From: Lachnospiraceae bacterium MD335
GTDB taxonomy: Bacteria; Bacillota; Clostridia; Lachnospirales; Lachnospiraceae
Length of the DNA: 64,000 nt
Assembly (NCBI GenBank): GCA_000403335.2
Contig: KE159631.1
Coordinates: forward strand, 87,110-151,109
Reading direction: 5' to 3'
In this document: positions 222-26,284 of the stretch, piece after piece
Numbering within the stretch: position 1 is the first letter of the stretch
Layout of the letters: each line of letters starts with the position of its first letter
Made by a program: the position numbers and the translations under genes
Notes under the pieces: generated by a model
Told to the model about the DNA's origin: nothing
The model's input: only the letters and a program-made list of their open reading frames with translations
The model's database searches: none

Positions 222-3200
222 ATGTATCAAAAGGTTTCAACAAACATGAATTTTGTAGACCGTGAAAAAGAGGTCGAGAAGTTTTGGAAGGACAATGATA
301 TTTTCAGAAAGAGCATGGAAAGCCGTAAGCAGGGCGAAACATATACATTTTATGACGGACCGCCGACGGCAAACGGAAAGCCGCATATCGGGCATGTGCT
401 GACGCGCGTCATTAAGGATATGATACCGCGCTACCGCACCATGAAAGGCTACATGGTGCCGCGAAAGGCAGGATGGGACACGCATGGACTTCCGGTAGAG
501 CTTGAGGTGGAGAAGCTGCTTGGCTTAAACGGCAAGGAGCAGATTGAAGAGTATGGTATGGAGCCTTTCATTAAAAAATGTAAGGAATCCGTATGGAAAT
601 ACAAGGGCATGTGGGAGGATTTTTCCGGAACGGTCGGTTTTTGGGCGGACATGGATGACCCGTATGTGACGTATCATGATGATTTTATCGAGTCAGAGTG
701 GTGGGCATTAAAAGAGATTTGGAATAAAAAGCTCTTATACAAGGGCTTTAAGATTGTGCCGTACTGTCCGCGCTGTGGGACGCCGCTTTCTTCGCAGGAG
801 GTTGCGCAGGGATATAAAACCGTCAAGGAACGCTCAGCGGTTGTGCGTTTTAAGGTAATCGGAGAGGACGCATATTTCCTTGCGTGGACAACCACGCCGT
901 GGACGCTGCCTTCCAATGTTGCGCTTTGTGTCAACCCGGATGAAACTTATTGCAGGGTAAAGGCGGCAGACGGCTATACGTATTATATGGCGGAGGCGCT
1001 TTTGGACAAGGTGCTTGGTAAGCTTGCCGAGAATGAGGGTGACAAGGCGTATGAGGTTTTGGAAACGTACAAGGGTACAGATTTAGAGCGGAAAGAATAT
1101 GTACCGTTATTTGATTTTGCGGCAGGCATTATTGAGAAACAGCATAAAAAGGCACATTATATCACATGTGACAATTATGTTACCATGACAGACGGTACGG
1201 GCATCGTTCATATTGCGCCTGCGTTTGGTGAGGACGACGCAAATGTCGGCAGAAAATATGACCTGCCGTTTGTACAGCTTGTAAACGGCAAGGGCGAGAT
1301 GACGGAGGAAACGTTGTATGCGGGTGTGTTTGTCAAGAAGGCGGATCCGATGATTTTGAAGGATTTGGAGAGCAAGGGACTGCTGTTTGACGCGCCGAAG
1401 TTTGAGCATGATTATCCGCACTGCTGGCGCTGCGATACGCCGCTGATTTACTATGCGCGCGAGTCGTGGTTTATTAAGATGACGGCTGTGAAGGATGATT
1501 TGGTGAGAAATAACAATACGGTCAACTGGATTCCGGAATCCATCGGAAAGGGTCGTTTCGGCGACTGGCTCGAAAATATTCAGGACTGGGGTATTTCGAG
1601 AAACCGATACTGGGGAACGCCGCTCAATGTGTGGGAGTGCGAGTGCGGTCATCAGGAATGTATCGGCAGCAGGCAGGAGCTTGCGGACAGGAGCGGTAAT
1701 CCTGATGCGGCGAAGGTAGAGCTGCACAGACCGTATATTGATGAAATGACATTCAAATGTCCCGATTGCGGAAAAGAGATGCACAGGGTTCCGGAGGTTA
1801 TTGACTGCTGGTTTGATTCGGGTGCGATGCCGTTTGCGCAGCATCATTATCCGTTTGAAAATAAAGAATTATTCGAACAGCAGTTTCCGGCACAGTTTAT
1901 TTCAGAGGCGGTTGACCAGACGCGCGGCTGGTTCTATTCACTGATGGCGGAGTCAACGCTTTTGTTCAACAAGTCGCCGTATGAGAATGTTATCGTGCTT
2001 GGTCATGTGCAGGACGAGAACGGGCAGAAGATGAGCAAGTCGAAGGGCAACGCGGTTGACCCGTTTGAGGCGCTTGAGACATACGGTGCGGACGCGATTC
2101 GCTGGTATTTCTATATTAATTCGGCTCCGTGGCTGCCAAACCGTTTCCACGGTAAGGCGGTTCAGGAGGGACAGCGTAAATTTATGGGTACGCTTTGGAA
2201 TACCTATGCGTTCTTTGTGCTTTATGCAAACATTGACCAGTTTGACGCGACGAAATACACAAACTATACGTCGTATAGTTCGGAATATGAGAAACTTCCG
2301 GTTATGGACAAGTGGCTTTTGTCAAAGCTCAATACGGTAGTCGGCGAGGTTGACAGTAACCTTGAAAATTATCGGATTCCTGAGGCAGCGAGGGCATTGC
2401 AGGAGTTTGTCGACGAGATGAGCAACTGGTATGTAAGACGCAGCCGCGAGCGCTTTTGGGCAAAGGGTATGGAGCAGGATAAGATTAATGCATATATGAC
2501 GCTTTATACTGCGCTTGTGACGATTTCGAAGGCGGCAGCGCCGATGATACCGTTTATGACGGAGGATATTTACAGAAATCTTGTGTGCAGCATTGATTCG
2601 TCTGCACCGGAAAGCGTGCATTTGTGTGACTTCCCGACAGTTGACGATAAATTGATTGACAAGCAGCTTGAGGCGGATATGGAAGCGCTGTTAAAGACGG
2701 TTGTTATGGGACGTGCGTGCAGAAATACGGCAAACATCAAGAACAGACAGCCAATCAGCACGATGTTTATTAAGGCGCCGTTTACGCTTGGCGCGTTTTA
2801 TCAGGAGATTATCGAGGACGAGCTGAATGTCAAGAAGGTTGTGTTTACGGATGATGTGCGGGAGTTTACGACGTATACGTTTAAGCCGCAGCTTAAGACG
2901 GTCGGTCCGAAATACGGCAAACAGCTTGGCGGCATTAAGGAGAAGCTTTCTGCGATTGACGGAAACGCGGCGATGGACGAGCTGAAGACAAACGGTGTTA
3001 TCACGTTTGACGTGAACGGCACAGAGGTGAAGCTTGCGGAGGAGGATTTGCTGATTGACATTTCGCAGAAGGAAGGTTATGTCACGGAGGCGGACAACAC
3101 GGTGACGGTTGTGCTTGACACCAATCTGACGGACGAGCTGATTGAGGAAGGCTTTGTTTACGAGGTTATCAGCAAGATTCAGACGATGCGTAAGGATTCG

Positions 3201-3392
3201 GACTTTGAGGTTATGGATCATATCAATGTTTACATCAGTGGAAATGACAGGATTGCAGATGTGGTTAAGAAGAATGCGGATGCGATTGGCGAGAAGGTTC
3301 TCGCAAATGCAATTCGGTATGAGAACGGCGGAAACGCGAAGGAGTGGAACGTGAACGGCGAGAAGGTCATGATTGGCGTGGAGCGCGTTTAG
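222..3392 (+). CDS. ileS: Isoleucyl-tRNA synthetase
   Basis: Cytoplasmic class I aminoacyl-tRNA synthetase that charges tRNA-Ile with isoleucine and edits mischarged valine. The HIGH signature is PHIGH near residues 54-58 and KMSKS lies near residue 603; Cys pairs around residues 185 and 480 fit zinc sites. At 1056 residues, with an anticodon-binding C-terminal half rich in acidic residues, it looks like the longer eukaryote-like IleRS type often found in Clostridia rather than the roughly 930-residue type; that subtype is an inference. An AGGTGGAG ribosome site precedes the ATG at 222; an alternative ATG eight codons later also has a purine-rich site. No T-box motif (TGGNACCGCG) is visible in the 221 bases upstream. 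A strong terminator follows at 3419. Confidence 0.97.
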   Translation: MYQKVSTNMNFVDREKEVEKFWKDNDIFRKSMESRKQGETYTFYDGPPTANGKPHIGHVLTRVIKDMIPRYRTMKGYMVPRKAGWDTHGLPVELEVEKLLGLNGKEQIEEYGMEPFIKKCKESVWKYKGMWEDFSGTVGFWADMDDPYVTYHDDFIESEWWALKEIWNKKLLYKGFKIVPYCPRCGTPLSSQEVAQGYKTVKERSAVVRFKVIGEDAYFLAWTTTPWTLPSNVALCVNPDETYCRVKAADGYTYYMAEALLDKVLGKLAENEGDKAYEVLETYKGTDLERKEYVPLFDFAAGIIEKQHKKAHYITCDNYVTMTDGTGIVHIAPAFGEDDANVGRKYDLPFVQLVNGKGEMTEETLYAGVFVKKADPMILKDLESKGLLFDAPKFEHDYPHCWRCDTPLIYYARESWFIKMTAVKDDLVRNNNTVNWIPESIGKGRFGDWLENIQDWGISRNRYWGTPLNVWECECGHQECIGSRQELADRSGNPDAAKVELHRPYIDEMTFKCPDCGKEMHRVPEVIDCWFDSGAMPFAQHHYPFENKELFEQQFPAQFISEAVDQTRGWFYSLMAESTLLFNKSPYENVIVLGHVQDENGQKMSKSKGNAVDPFEALETYGADAIRWYFYINSAPWLPNRFHGKAVQEGQRKFMGTLWNTYAFFVLYANIDQFDATKYTNYTSYSSEYEKLPVMDKWLLSKLNTVVGEVDSNLENYRIPEAARALQEFVDEMSNWYVRRSRERFWAKGMEQDKINAYMTLYTALVTISKAAAPMIPFMTEDIYRNLVCSIDSSAPESVHLCDFPTVDDKLIDKQLEADMEALLKTVVMGRACRNTANIKNRQPISTMFIKAPFTLGAFYQEIIEDELNVKKVVFTDDVREFTTYTFKPQLKTVGPKYGKQLGGIKEKLSAIDGNAAMDELKTNGVITFDVNGTEVKLAEEDLLIDISQKEGYVTEADNTVTVVLDTNLTDELIEEGFVYEVISKIQTMRKDSDFEVMDHINVYISGNDRIADVVKKNADAIGEKVLANAIRYENGGNAKEWNVNGEKVMIGVERV

Positions 3393-5831: not shown

Positions 5832-7757
5832 TTACTGTTTTGCCCGCGCAGACAGCAGCGTTCTTTGATATACCACAATGGAAAGTGCGCAAAATAATAC
5901 AAATACAATTAACACCACAACCGTACTGACAACATAAATCACAAACAAGTCGGCACGCATCATTTTCCCAAGTGCAAGGACAGAAAAATACGCGGATACT
6001 GTCATCACGACAAAGGGCAGCAGATACGCCGTCACCAGCTCATGCGCAATGGATGCCGAGAGCGTCCTTGTCGAAAATCCAAGCTTTTTTAAAACTGTAT
6101 ACCGCTCCGTTTCCTCAAACGAATCGTTGTACAGTTTCATAAACATAATGCAGCCGCTTGCCACGATAAACACCAAAAACATAAAGATACAAAGTGAATA
6201 AACCGCCTTAATCCATTCCTCCTCATTACTGAAAGGATCAATCGAAACACGCGCGGTATAGTTTTCGTCCGTATTGCTGACAATCGCGTCAAAGGCTGCG
6301 CGCGCCTCCCCAAAAACGCTGTCGTCCGCAAGCTTGTAATTACAGATATAATACAATCCGCTTTGCGCCTTTAACCGCTCATATTCCCTGTCGGAAACGA
6401 TGTAGAAACACGCCAGTTCCTTCTGCATATATCCCAAATAAGGCGTCATAATTCGCTGCGTCTGCCGATACGTTTTTCCCGCGATTGTGACAGGCTCCGC
6501 CTCCCCGTTTGTGATAAAGGACAGCAGAACCAAATGGGAAAGGTAGTAAACTTCGTCGTCCGCAGGTTCTGCAAACGCAAATGTCACGCCTGCCTCCTGT
6601 GCAATCCGCTGTATGTCGGAGTAGGAGAGCAGAAGGTGCATTTGCCGCACGTCAGAATAGGTGGACAAGAGCTGTTCGCTGTCAGGTGAAAGTGCGCAGA
6701 GCGCGCTTTGATAGGTAATCGGGCTTTTTCCGTCGAGCAGCGTTTGGGTGGTTTTTTCGATATTGCTTTGGTTGCTGATAAACTGAAAGGTATACTGATG
6801 ATTGAATGCAACCATGTTGTCGTAGCGGTCTCGCATCGCAAAGCCTGTTGCCAGTGCAGTGACGGAGCAAATACCCATAATGCACACCATTGCATATGTG
6901 CGGTAATTTTTGCGCATGCGGAAAATGGTCTGATTCACCCACAGACACCGCTGTCCGCGATATAAAAAGCCCTTGCATGCGGCAAGCATTTGAAAGACAA
7001 GCGGTATCAGACCGCCAAACAGCAGATATACGCCGATAATTACAAGCACGACTGCCAGCAGGGCATTTGTCAGTATGTCATTCCTGCCGCCCTTGTTCGC
7101 ATAATAATATCCCGACGCGAGTACGATTGCGCCCAAAGCGGCTTTCAGCAGCAAAACAACCGGTTTGACGTGCAGATATTCGTTTTGCTTTGCAGCCGAA
7201 ATCATATTCAGCACGCTGCTGTGGGTGATATTCCAAAAGCCCTTGAGGGCAAAAAACAGATACATGGACAAAAATGACACAGATGTCATTTTTATAGCTT
7301 TTATGGAAATTCCGAACCTGACATCGACTGTGATGTCGGAAACGGCGCCCATAATCATTTGAAACAGTCCTGCAAAGAGCGCGCCGAATACGATACCCAT
7401 TATAAGCGCGGTGGCACCCACAAAGCTGATTTCCACCAGATAAAGACTGCCGATTTTGCGGTTTGACATGCCCATAAAGATATAAATGCCGATTTCCCGT
7501 TTGCGCCTTGTCAGAAAGACGTTGGTCGCATACCAAAGGAAAAAGAAGAGAAAGCACAGGAGCACAGTCAGGCAGATTTGAATCAGCATGTCGATGTAGT
7601 CCTTGTTGCGCTGTCCCAATATTGCGAACGCGTCGGAATGAATGATATTTTGGAAGTTGAAAAATACCAGTATTGTAAACGCAAGGGACAGGACTAAGGA
7701 CAAGTAGCTTTTGAAGCTGTTTTTAAAATTCAAAAAGGCAAGCCGGACGATTTTCAT
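5832..7757 (-). CDS. bceB: BceB-type ABC transporter permease (FtsX family)
   Basis: A 641-residue membrane protein with about ten hydrophobic segments in the BceB arrangement: four N-terminal segments with an FtsX domain, a large extracytoplasmic domain (about residues 310-500) and a C-terminal FtsX domain. With its ATPase it forms an unusual ABC unit that senses lipid-II-binding peptides such as bacitracin and frees the cell-wall target, and it signals to the adjacent BceS-type kinase. Its start overlaps the end of the ATPase gene by four bases (ATGA), indicating translational coupling. The coding sequence contains one copy of the window's TGACACANNTGTCA palindrome at 7275. The actual peptide substrate cannot be told from sequence. 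Confidence 0.9.
   Translation of the reverse strand: MKIVRLAFLNFKNSFKSYLSLVLSLAFTILVFFNFQNIIHSDAFAILGQRNKDYIDMLIQICLTVLLCFLFFFLWYATNVFLTRRKREIGIYIFMGMSNRKIGSLYLVEISFVGATALIMGIVFGALFAGLFQMIMGAVSDITVDVRFGISIKAIKMTSVSFLSMYLFFALKGFWNITHSSVLNMISAAKQNEYLHVKPVVLLLKAALGAIVLASGYYYANKGGRNDILTNALLAVVLVIIGVYLLFGGLIPLVFQMLAACKGFLYRGQRCLWVNQTIFRMRKNYRTYAMVCIMGICSVTALATGFAMRDRYDNMVAFNHQYTFQFISNQSNIEKTTQTLLDGKSPITYQSALCALSPDSEQLLSTYSDVRQMHLLLSYSDIQRIAQEAGVTFAFAEPADDEVYYLSHLVLLSFITNGEAEPVTIAGKTYRQTQRIMTPYLGYMQKELACFYIVSDREYERLKAQSGLYYICNYKLADDSVFGEARAAFDAIVSNTDENYTARVSIDPFSNEEEWIKAVYSLCIFMFLVFIVASGCIMFMKLYNDSFEETERYTVLKKLGFSTRTLSASIAHELVTAYLLPFVVMTVSAYFSVLALGKMMRADLFVIYVVSTVVVLIVFVLFCALSIVVYQRTLLSARAKQ
7275..7288 (+). 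repeat. Palindrome TGACACANNTGTCA, copy 1
   Basis: TGACACAGATGTCA inside the permease gene, flanked by A-runs and T-runs so that the arms extend to 10 bp each. Encoded on the strand opposite to the gene. Confidence 0.8.
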
Positions 7758-23498: not shown

Positions 23499-23547
23499 AA
23501 AGTCCCATAAGCACATTTGATTGGTATAGGTGCTTGTGGGGCTTTTT
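23499..23547 (+). terminator. gdhA terminator
   Basis: AAGTCCCATAAGCAC pairs with GTGCTTGTGGGGCTT, followed by TTTGTGTTG. Confidence 0.85.
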
Positions 23548-23633
23548 GTGTTGAATATTAAAAGGATAGTATAATATATTGTGAAAAAAACGTATAAATA
23601 GTGAGAAATAGTACAAAATTATTGTGAAACAAA

Positions 23634-23662
23634 TTGACGAAAGTGAAAAAAACACGTAAAAT
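23634..23662 (+). promoter_or_regulatory. Promoter of the AAA ATPase / RloB pair
   Basis: TTGACG and TAAAAT with a 17-base spacer, 31 bases before the first ATG. Confidence 0.6.
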
Positions 23663-23692: not shown

Positions 23693-25075
23693 ATGTTAAT
23701 TCGGTTTAATGTGAAGAATTTTCTTTCGTTCCATGCAAAAGTTGATGAAACATCGGAAGAGTTTTCCATGATTGCGGGAAAAGTGCGAAGCAAGAAAGAG
23801 CATGTATTTGATGACGGAAAAGTGAAACTGTTGAAGTTTGCAGCAGTGTATGGTGCAAATGCGTCGGGAAAATCCAATTTGGTAAAGGCTATTGATTTTA
23901 TGAAATCTACCGTGGAATCAGGATTGCCAAGCGGTTGTGCGGATATGTACTGTAAAATAGAGGAGGGAAATAAGAAAAAACCAAGTTATTTTGAGGTGGA
24001 AATCAAGTTAAAGAACAAATATTACGCTTATGGGTTTGAAGTGGTTTTGAATAAAGGGGAATTTCTATCGGAGTGGTTAATTGAATTGATGCCTGATAAT
24101 AAGGAAAAATTGATTTTTAACAGGGATATTGAACATGGAAGTTATGAATTTGGTGGGGGTTTTAGGACAAAAGGATTGGCAGAGAAATTAGAAATGTATG
24201 CCGAGGATATTCAAGATGATACGGGGGCTTTGTTTTTGTCAATTATGAATAAAAACAAAAAGAATTTTTATCAGAATCATGAACGTGCACTGATGTTGCA
24301 GGATGTTTATCGGTGGTTCGTTAATTGTTTGAATATTAATTTTCCTGATGATTTAATATCAAGCTATTCTTATATGGCAGAGACGGATAATATAGAAGAA
24401 ATATGTAATATGATTGCTGCGTTTGGAACAGGAATTGCAGATTTCCAAATTGTAGATGTTCCGGATGAACAAGCGCTTTCCAATATGCCAAAGAAAGGGC
24501 GGGAAGAATTGGTTCTGGTTCTAAATAAAGATGCGGATTATATGAAAAGCAGTCTTAAAGTAAAAAGGATTTCTCATATTTTGCGTACTAGAAAGAATTT
24601 GTTTATTATATCAATTGACAGTGACGAGGAGGTTACCTTTAAGACAATAAAATTTTCCCATAATAAAAATAATGTTCTTTTTGAGTTATCGGAAGAATCT
24701 GATGGAACTGTAAGAATACTGGATTTATTGGAGATTTTACTTTCAGAGGAAGGCAAAACTTATGTTCTTGATGAATTGGATCGATGTCTGCACCCGAGCC
24801 TGACTTATAAATTTGTTGAAACGTTTTTGAAGCTAGCGGAACGAAAGAATATCCAACTAATTGTCACAACGCACGAAGCAAGATTATTGGACTTTGACTT
24901 GCTGCGCAGGGATGAAGTTTGGTTTGTTAATAAACGCAAGGGCGGAGAAAGTGATATTTATTCGTTGGAAGAGTACAATGCAAGATTTGACCAAAAGATT
25001 GACAAAGCATACTTAGAGGGACGTTATGGAGGCGTTCCAATATTCAGTACGATATTTCCGATTAAGGAGGCATAA
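23693..25075 (+). CDS. AAA family ATPase, AbiLi-like phage-defence component
   Basis: A 460-residue OLD/RecF-like ATPase. Motifs: MLIRFNVKNFLSF at the start, Walker A GANASGKSN near residue 55, ABC-like Walker B VLDELDRCLHP near residue 358 and a switch His in VTTHEARLLD. It has no visible nuclease domain. The RloB gene follows after three bases. This ATPase-RloB pair is the architecture I know as the two-gene AbiL abortive-infection system (AbiLi-AbiLii) and related RloA/RloB loci; a defence role is inferred, not shown. TTGGAGATAAAATT precedes the ATG; a TTG six codons upstream is less likely. Its base composition is lower in GC than gdhA, fitting acquired DNA. Confidence 0.85.
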   Translation: MLIRFNVKNFLSFHAKVDETSEEFSMIAGKVRSKKEHVFDDGKVKLLKFAAVYGANASGKSNLVKAIDFMKSTVESGLPSGCADMYCKIEEGNKKKPSYFEVEIKLKNKYYAYGFEVVLNKGEFLSEWLIELMPDNKEKLIFNRDIEHGSYEFGGGFRTKGLAEKLEMYAEDIQDDTGALFLSIMNKNKKNFYQNHERALMLQDVYRWFVNCLNINFPDDLISSYSYMAETDNIEEICNMIAAFGTGIADFQIVDVPDEQALSNMPKKGREELVLVLNKDADYMKSSLKVKRISHILRTRKNLFIISIDSDEEVTFKTIKFSHNKNNVLFELSEESDGTVRILDLLEILLSEEGKTYVLDELDRCLHPSLTYKFVETFLKLAERKNIQLIVTTHEARLLDFDLLRRDEVWFVNKRKGGESDIYSLEEYNARFDQKIDKAYLEGRYGGVPIFSTIFPIKEA

Positions 25076-25078
25076 TGA

Positions 25079-26032
25079 ATGAGGGAGCGCAGGACGTTTG
25101 CCGAGCGTACGAAAGCACTGAAGTCGGACGAAGCCAATAGAAAAGTTTTTCTTGTATATGAAGGCGCGGGCACGGAGGTATTATATTTTGACGCTTTAAA
25201 AACAAGAAAAGAGGATGTCGGCATTAATCCGCTGATTGAATTAGTCCCGATTATTAGAAGTTATAGCGAGGATGGCTGGAGTAATCCAAAAAAGATTTTA
25301 GATAGAGTAATTGAGAATTTAGAAGAGGATAAAACAGGACGGATTACGTATGAGTCTCTTTTGAACCGTATTATGGACTATTTCTATGATGAAAAAGTAT
25401 TGACGACAAGCAGAGTGCAGGCGGACGCTGTTTGGAAATTAATGAATGATGGGTGTAGGAACATACTGCAAAAACCGTTGTCTGCCGTTGTGGCAAATTT
25501 AGAAGAAGATTGCAAGTCGATTATAGCGTATCTTAATCAGGAATCGGAAATTGCCAATATTGTCGCAGATATTTCGGACATTATTAAGACCAGTGTTATA
25601 ACATATGCGGAAGGATTTGATAAAATCTGCCTGATTGTGGATCGGGATAAAGAGAGTTTTTTGGCGAAACAGGAGAACAATCAGTACCAGTATGTTTTGG
25701 AAAAATGTAAGGAAAAAGGGTTTGACTTTTATGTTACAAATCCATGCTTTGAGTTTTGGCTTTTGCTGCATTTTGATGAGGTAATGGAGTTGGAGCGGGA
25801 TATGCTGCTGGAAAATCCCAAAGTAACGGCAAAAAGAAGATACACGGAGCATGAATTAAGAAAATTGCTGAAGGGATATTGCAAAAGTCATTATAATGCA
25901 GTTTCTTTGATTGATAAAGTGGATACTGCTATTCGAAATGTAAAAGTATTTTGTAATGATATTGAGCGGCTAAAGGATGAAGTGGGGTCGAACTTAGGGG
26001 ATTTGATAATGGACTTGAGAGAACCAGAATAA
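25079..26032 (+). CDS. RloB domain protein, AbiLii-like
   Basis: A 317-residue protein. The N-terminus has a TOPRIM-like acidic loop (VYEGAGTEVLYFDAL, residues about 24-38), later CLIVDRDKESF near residue 184 and NPCFEFWLLLHFDE near residue 220, the set that defines RloB. These residues suggest a metal-dependent nuclease fold, as in OLD partners. AAGGAGG at the end of the ATPase gene serves this start at eight bases, so the two proteins are made together. A C-terminal helical domain (about 240-317) is basic. Compared with known pairs the length is somewhat above average, but no domain is obviously missing. Confidence 0.85.
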   Translation: MRERRTFAERTKALKSDEANRKVFLVYEGAGTEVLYFDALKTRKEDVGINPLIELVPIIRSYSEDGWSNPKKILDRVIENLEEDKTGRITYESLLNRIMDYFYDEKVLTTSRVQADAVWKLMNDGCRNILQKPLSAVVANLEEDCKSIIAYLNQESEIANIVADISDIIKTSVITYAEGFDKICLIVDRDKESFLAKQENNQYQYVLEKCKEKGFDFYVTNPCFEFWLLLHFDEVMELERDMLLENPKVTAKRRYTEHELRKLLKGYCKSHYNAVSLIDKVDTAIRNVKVFCNDIERLKDEVGSNLGDLIMDLREPE

Positions 26033-26039
26033 TTGTTAA

Positions 26040-26284
26040 AAATAACCGTAACATTCCTCCCGGTTAATAAATTGTGCAAAAATAGAAGCGCTTACCTGTA
26101 ATGATAATAACGGTTGCTGTAATTGATACATATCCTCCGAGTTCCTCTGATATGCCCATTCCGATTGCGTTGTAACGGATTTGGGTAATAATGTAATATC
26201 TTCTGTTTTGTTTAAGCCAAAGAGCAATGCTAAAGCAAGTATGCTGCAAATACTAGTCAATACGCCTGATAAAATTCCCAATAA
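26040..26284 (-). pseudogene. lrgB: lrgB/cidB fragment
   Basis: Reads GILSGVLTSICSILALALLF, ITLLPKSVTT, then after a one-base deletion AIGMGISEELGGYVSITATV, and a further frame break near 26090. This is the middle of an LrgB membrane protein, partner of the LrgA holin-like protein. The N-terminal two fifths are absent, and the piece joins directly to the lrgA remnant. Confidence 0.75.

Follow-up and report, generated by a model that had tools for sequence, protein, structure and literature searches.

Several of the described systems closest to the locus analyzed here pair an ATPase with a Toprim-like protein. AbiL is counted among these ATPase-Toprim systems in the available text of PMC12409363, and such ATPases are placed in the OLD family in that of PMC12839542. 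In PARIS, AriA sequesters AriB, and phage triggers release AriB, which then cleaves tRNA (PMC12409363). Two pairs are reported in which an AAA protein neutralizes an OLD-Toprim toxin, and a link has been drawn between RloB and OLD-Toprim proteins (PMC10440598); the mentions of autoregulation in the accessible part of that source concern other antitoxins. We found no description of a control region or operator for AbiL in the literature searched, the scope of which left subscription journals mostly outside.

Within the window (the whole 64,000-nucleotide stretch of Lachnospiraceae bacterium MD335 DNA that was analyzed), an earlier note had proposed a two-gene operon of AbiL type, and the AbiLi, AbiLii, and RloB models of PADLOC and Pfam all match the pair. 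An AbiLi-type OLD/Rad50-like ABC ATPase of 460 amino acids begins with an ATG at 23693 and ends with its stop codon at 25075 (+ strand), and after a 3-base gap, it is followed by an adjacent, codirectional reading frame for an RloB/AbiLii protein of 317 amino acids that is Toprim-like (25079 to 26032, + strand), the coordinates being as the note had given them. The ATPase matches PADLOC AbiLi as the best of 66 families (PDLC02335; E = 9.2e-81) and Pfam AAA_21 (E = 7.8e-31). Its partner matches Pfam RloB over positions 2 to 195 of the 195-position profile (PF13707; E = 7e-32; 111.5 bits against a cutoff of 31.5) and, as the sole PADLOC family, AbiLii (PDLC02337; E = 1.5e-17), a partial match whose best stretch covers profile positions 23 to 75 of 170, much as the AbiLii of Lactococcus phage proPhi7 covers positions 24 to 78. 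An NCBIfam search of the pair returned nothing above the cutoff. By these models, the two-gene locus is supported as an AbiL-type operon, and relatives likewise have the two genes side by side, with an RloB reading frame, adjoining the ATPase in the ORF listing, in 68 of 80 viral-contig loci that carry an AbiLi relative.

The system is of a known kind, with an insertion variant of RloB and a putative operator. With the AbiL pair of proPhi7 (annotated as "abortive phage resistance protein"), it shares gene order, close spacing, PADLOC models, and Pfam domains, but identity is low (25% for the ATPase and 21% for RloB), the window RloB has 317 rather than 192 residues and contains a helical insertion, and no GTGA site of the kind described below accompanies the proPhi7 pair. 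As in PARIS, an OLD-type ABC ATPase adjoins a Toprim-like protein, and the AriA model matches the window ATPase (E = 2.6e-31); PARIS was nonetheless rejected because the second protein belongs to the RloB family and has no AriB (DUF4435) match up to an E value of 1. The ATPase fold of the AbiLi model is common to OLD nucleases, the PtuA of Septu and retrons, and Rad50/SMC heads, although here, unlike in OLD nucleases, the ATPase and the Toprim-like part reside in two polypeptides and, unlike in Septu, the partner is RloB rather than an HNH protein. Type II toxin-antitoxin loci are similar in having two genes, a putative neutralizer first, and palindromes over the promoter, but the window pair has no DNA-binding family above the cutoff, and its two sites lie six or seven helical turns apart.

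Both proteins retain their motifs. The Walker A, Walker B, and switch histidine recognized earlier in the ATPase are indeed there, and 15 aligned AbiLi orthologs are invariant at all of them (GANASGKS at residues 54 to 61, D360/E361, and H394) except S58; the protein also has a signature-like SEESDGT at residues 333 to 339 and a C-terminal GRYGGVP. The Toprim-like acidic motifs likewise hold up, with E28, D188, R189, D190, and N221 to L228 of RloB invariant in 14 aligned long relatives and E28, D188, and D190 also invariant in 8 diverse RloB proteins; across a broader collection of 36, D188 never varies, E28 is conserved in at least 90%, and D190 falls below 90%. A further signature of RloB is NPCFEFW. 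Selection on both genes is purifying: dN/dS against genome G024, a sister species, is 0.081 for the ATPase gene and 0.057 for the RloB gene, compared with 0.032 for gdhA, ratios that are rough because synonymous sites are near saturation. The predicted AbiLi structure (pLDDT of 86.8) has SMC, Rad50, and retron PtuA heads as its best neighbors (Z scores of 18 to 19.5). Matches to the RloB model (pLDDT of 81.6) are all weak; the top one is the Toprim region of an OLD nuclease (6p74, residues 371 to 525; rmsd of 4.2 over 137 aligned residues), with a Z score of 6.1, which chance arrangements can also reach, and Foldseek returned no match for this model at an E value of 0.001. In the alignment, 6p74 carries D431 and D433, which we take to be its catalytic residues.

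Alignment with shorter RloB proteins and predicted helices indicate that the window RloB is a variant with a helical insertion of roughly 90 residues between the acidic motifs (residues about 88 to 172; 25340 to 25594, + strand, limits approximate), the helices being predicted at residues 91 to 104, 112 to 129, 141 to 155, and 162 to 171. Among the matches listed for 299 family genomes, most full-profile RloB matches span about 550 to 600 bases, those of the window, G185, G230, G203, and G314 span 849 to 873 bases, and those of G138, G249, G251, and G352 are intermediate (774 to 777 bases). Searches with the window RloB, its own genome included, matched 7 of 60 relatives, at full length only its own genome, G024, and G041, and 29 of 392 genomes of the order, 6 of them at full length. 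AbiLi stands beside the long-form RloB in every locus that is long enough, L011 starting too close to RloB.

The earlier note gave the pair its own promoter, and this view is borne out by hexamers TTGACG and TAAAAT separated by 17 nt (23634 to 23662, + strand), which are conserved in related cassettes located elsewhere, and by a terminator-like hairpin with a T run after gdhA (23499 to 23550, + strand; fold of -24.2 kcal/mol, z of -4.73) that separates the pair from gdhA. By eye, the hairpin is also present, with changed bases, in the G024 alignment. A plain consensus promoter scan did not rise above chance (15 sites, compared with 11.9 in shuffles, standard deviation of 3.7), and that first scan found no terminator within its loop limits. 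Inside the promoter spacer lies an operator-like site, GTGAAAAAAACAC (23643 to 23655, no strand assigned), that agrees with GTGA-N5-TCAC at 7 of 8 arm positions, and 62 bp upstream is a distal site, GTGAAAAAAACGT (23581 to 23593, likewise unstranded), that agrees at 5 of 8. This layout of promoter and operator-like sites is the same in eight aligned relatives. No strict operator pair occurs in the window genome, which a one-site pattern matches 5 times, against 3 for the control.

All 16 upstream regions of the long clade (that of G359 being only 123 bases) hold a site scoring at least 6/8, with 31 sites in total against a null mean of 6.6 and maximum of 15 in 300 resamplings. In 14 of the 16, the exceptions being G630 and G359, a site occupies the same register inside the 17-nt spacer, scoring 5/8 or 6/8 in L012, L015, G185, and G230. 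A second copy follows at 61 to 62 or 71 bp in 12 of these 14 (G203 and G041 are without one), although it reaches only 5/8 in the window, L010, and L014 and 6/8 in G185 and G314; L010 has an equal-scoring second copy at 75 as well, and the spacings in L015 and G230 were read from site positions, the script having chosen another proximal site there.

Beyond this clade, the perfect palindrome GTGA-N5-TCAC occurs in 21 of 117 distinct AbiLi upstream regions (Markov null mean of 0.15, maximum of 1 in 100 runs), 10 in the long clade, where it was first seen, and 11 of 102 outside it; its frequency in random pieces of the same loci is 0.19%. Where it is paired, 11 of 13 spacings fall at 62 to 64 or 71 to 73 bp, that is, six or seven helical turns, the others being 135 and 190. 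A search free of any arm sequence (4-base arms, 5-base center) yielded pairs with identical arms 55 to 80 apart in 8 of 124 loci, against none in 20 null runs, at spacings of 62, 62, 63, 71, 72, 73, 73, and 73; seven have GTGA arms and one, in L136, has ACGA arms at 73. Seven other arm and center geometries gave 0 or 2 loci. Within the clade of L050 to L053, the spacings are 63, 73, 72, and 62, favoring helical phase over common descent alone. The relaxed form GWGA-N5-TCWC, chosen after seeing the data, is present in 39 of 124 loci (null mean of 0.8 loci, maximum of 4) and, after clustering at 50% identity, in 18 of 52 clusters, leaving 85 of 124 AbiLi upstream regions without even this motif, among them clusters of 13, 9, and 6 members. 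A weight-matrix count of 36 of 124 is not used as evidence, as the matrix was trained on the sites that it scores. In locus L123, a perfect 21-bp palindrome (5880 to 5900) lies upstream of AbiLi, and RloB was not found downstream.

Taken together with the analogies above, these features make it likely, in our judgment, that the locus is an AbiL-type cassette in which AbiLi, the OLD/Rad50-like ABC ATPase, would act as sensor, scaffold, and antitoxin, RloB would be the Toprim-like nuclease effector, and an operator would control their shared promoter. In the resting cell, AbiLi would keep RloB inactive and the shared promoter low, probably as an oligomer that spans both palindromic operators across the six or seven helical turns between them; a phage trigger would alter AbiLi, freeing RloB and relieving the repression. 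If RloB behaves like the AriB of PARIS, it might then act by cleaving RNA. The restraint of RloB by AbiLi and a self-repressing role for the sites are what we infer from the available text of PMC10440598, PMC12409363, and PMC12839542, and the putative sites would then serve self-regulation by a protein of the cassette, perhaps AbiLi. A more specific version, which we regard as possible rather than probable, has AbiLi itself recognize the DNA sequence and repress its own promoter by bridging two GTGA-N5-TCAC operators, such that a single oligomer senses phage, restrains RloB, and controls the supply of both proteins. If so, triggering would release effector and promoter together, in a regulatory class that includes several, not all, AbiL clades.

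As to which protein might bind, Pfam gave no DNA-binding family above the cutoff for either; below it, SLIDE matches the window RloB (E = 0.5) and DBD_HTH matches the proPhi7 RloB (E = 0.0037). The latter would point to RloB rather than AbiLi, whereas the palindrome of L123, a single case, favors AbiLi. The helical insertion is unlikely to be a DNA-binding part, since the palindrome also accompanies the short RloB proteins of L124, L125, L128, and L234; RhoGEF chains matched the insertion at E values of 0.03 to 0.1, which we judged to be chance. A pair of phased operators moving along with the cassette would offer a handle in the form of a binding fragment, a reporter for trigger screening, and a means of asking whether the ATPases in so large a family also regulate transcription. 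Should AbiLi bind DNA, one may speculate that a single surface could serve both for self-repression and, as in PARIS, for recognizing DNA-like phage proteins.

The sites might instead be bound by a conserved host transcription factor that the cassette merely exploits, which would accord with the lack of an above-cutoff DNA-binding family in the two cassette proteins. Single palindromes in the 14 carrier genomes also exceed the reversed control (57 against 24), and as just 14 of the 57 are cassette sites, the others may belong to a host regulator. On the other side, a survey of 38 genus genomes placed the one-site operator-promoter pattern only in the window genome (G000), once, and in G024, twice, in each case just upstream of the cassette, these being the only two genomes with this cassette among the 36 covered by the RloB search. 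The strict pair, by its coordinates, occupies one place in each of 6 of the 14 carriers, always just upstream of AbiLi (8 carriers have none), and is absent from the 391 class and 398 phylum genomes sampled, sets that overlap and include the window genome. In 344 order genomes, it has two AT-centered matches (G249 and G433), both at AbiLi promoters, besides three GC-centered repeats in G431, and a scan of viral contigs gave two matches, both within repeats. A Fusobacterium plasmid and diverse viral contigs further show the palindrome alongside AbiLi, and we consider a host factor unlikely.

Defense against phage may also not be the cassette's main task. Toxin-antitoxin loci typically carry operators at their promoters, and by eye, cassettes stand alone between apparent housekeeping genes, as might be expected of an addiction or stabilization module with little defensive role. 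Growth assays are reported to show relatives neutralizing Toprim toxins, and a test of one AAA-toxin pair in Escherichia coli yielded no hit among the BASEL phages (PMC10440598). The same source, citing Deng 1999, nevertheless describes Lactococcus AbiL as abortive infection, and a CBASS-type cyclase (L010, 7407 to 8084; E = 2.6e-52) adjoins the AbiL pair of one relative, so that a mainly addictive role appears quite unlikely to us. We give very little credence to the idea that the cassette is a decaying, inactive remnant. It could draw on the decayed lrgB beside the window pair and on broken RloB genes in relatives, that of L015 (4745 to 6037) being interrupted by an insert with transposase-like reading frames (IS630-like by eye) while its AbiLi is still open and that of L014 being split into two reading frames, but in the window neither gene is broken, the motifs are in place, and dN/dS is well below 1 for both.

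The AbiL-type cassette was also described in the earlier note as acquired DNA, more AT rich than gdhA and next to a decayed lrgAB pair. The GC contents agree (35.6% and 38.5% for the pair against 48.5% for gdhA and 45.2% for the window), and such low values fit a foreign origin, as does patchy presence. The arrival is not recent, however, and predates the split from G024, which has the pair at the same place and in the same order beside gdhA (AbiLi 78% and RloB 79% identical) and shares the upstream genes and a downstream lipoprotein-like gene, with neighbors 47 to 96% identical, a range that encloses the values for the pair. Of lrgAB, only the lrgB half stood: LrgB remnants in two frames (E values of 3.4e-6 and 7e-6; profile positions 82 to 119 and 119 to 144) lie beside the pair at 26036 to 26281 on the - strand and are absent from the matching G024 interval, but the single 110-amino-acid reading frame tested had no LrgA match. 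Elsewhere in the genus, 20 further gdhA loci were compared, and in none does the pair adjoin gdhA (L202 and L213, with under 450 bases downstream, are uninformative); since gdhA there also lacks the other window genes as neighbors, these loci offer no clean empty-site comparison, and the ATPase match of L210 is weak (31%) and lies about 9 kb from gdhA. By eye, no type I restriction-modification operon of the sort that surrounds Rlo loci was noticed in the ORF listing of 19 to 31 kb. The pair looks like a solitary, movable cassette, because its neighborhoods differ among relatives, ranging (by eye) over ribosomal-protein and integrase-like reading frames, a RecQ-like reading frame, and capsule-type genes.

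More distant AbiL pairs occur in G002 and G012. In G352, contig C30, two additional GTGA-N5-TCAC palindromes (593 to 605 and 989 to 1001) are located away from the AbiL pair. Proteins of about 100 amino acids replace RloB in L118 (1380 to 1691) and L120 (7380 to 7685), with no convincing Pfam and no PADLOC match, and L120, whose neighbor has 101 amino acids, has no operator site. In a Treponema plasmid (L235), a NUDIX protein (2904 to 3323; PADLOC PDC-S07; E = 7.6e-43) follows AbiLi in place of RloB, and the operator site there is weak, its 5.1 bits exceeding more than 95% but less than 99% of the null bests.
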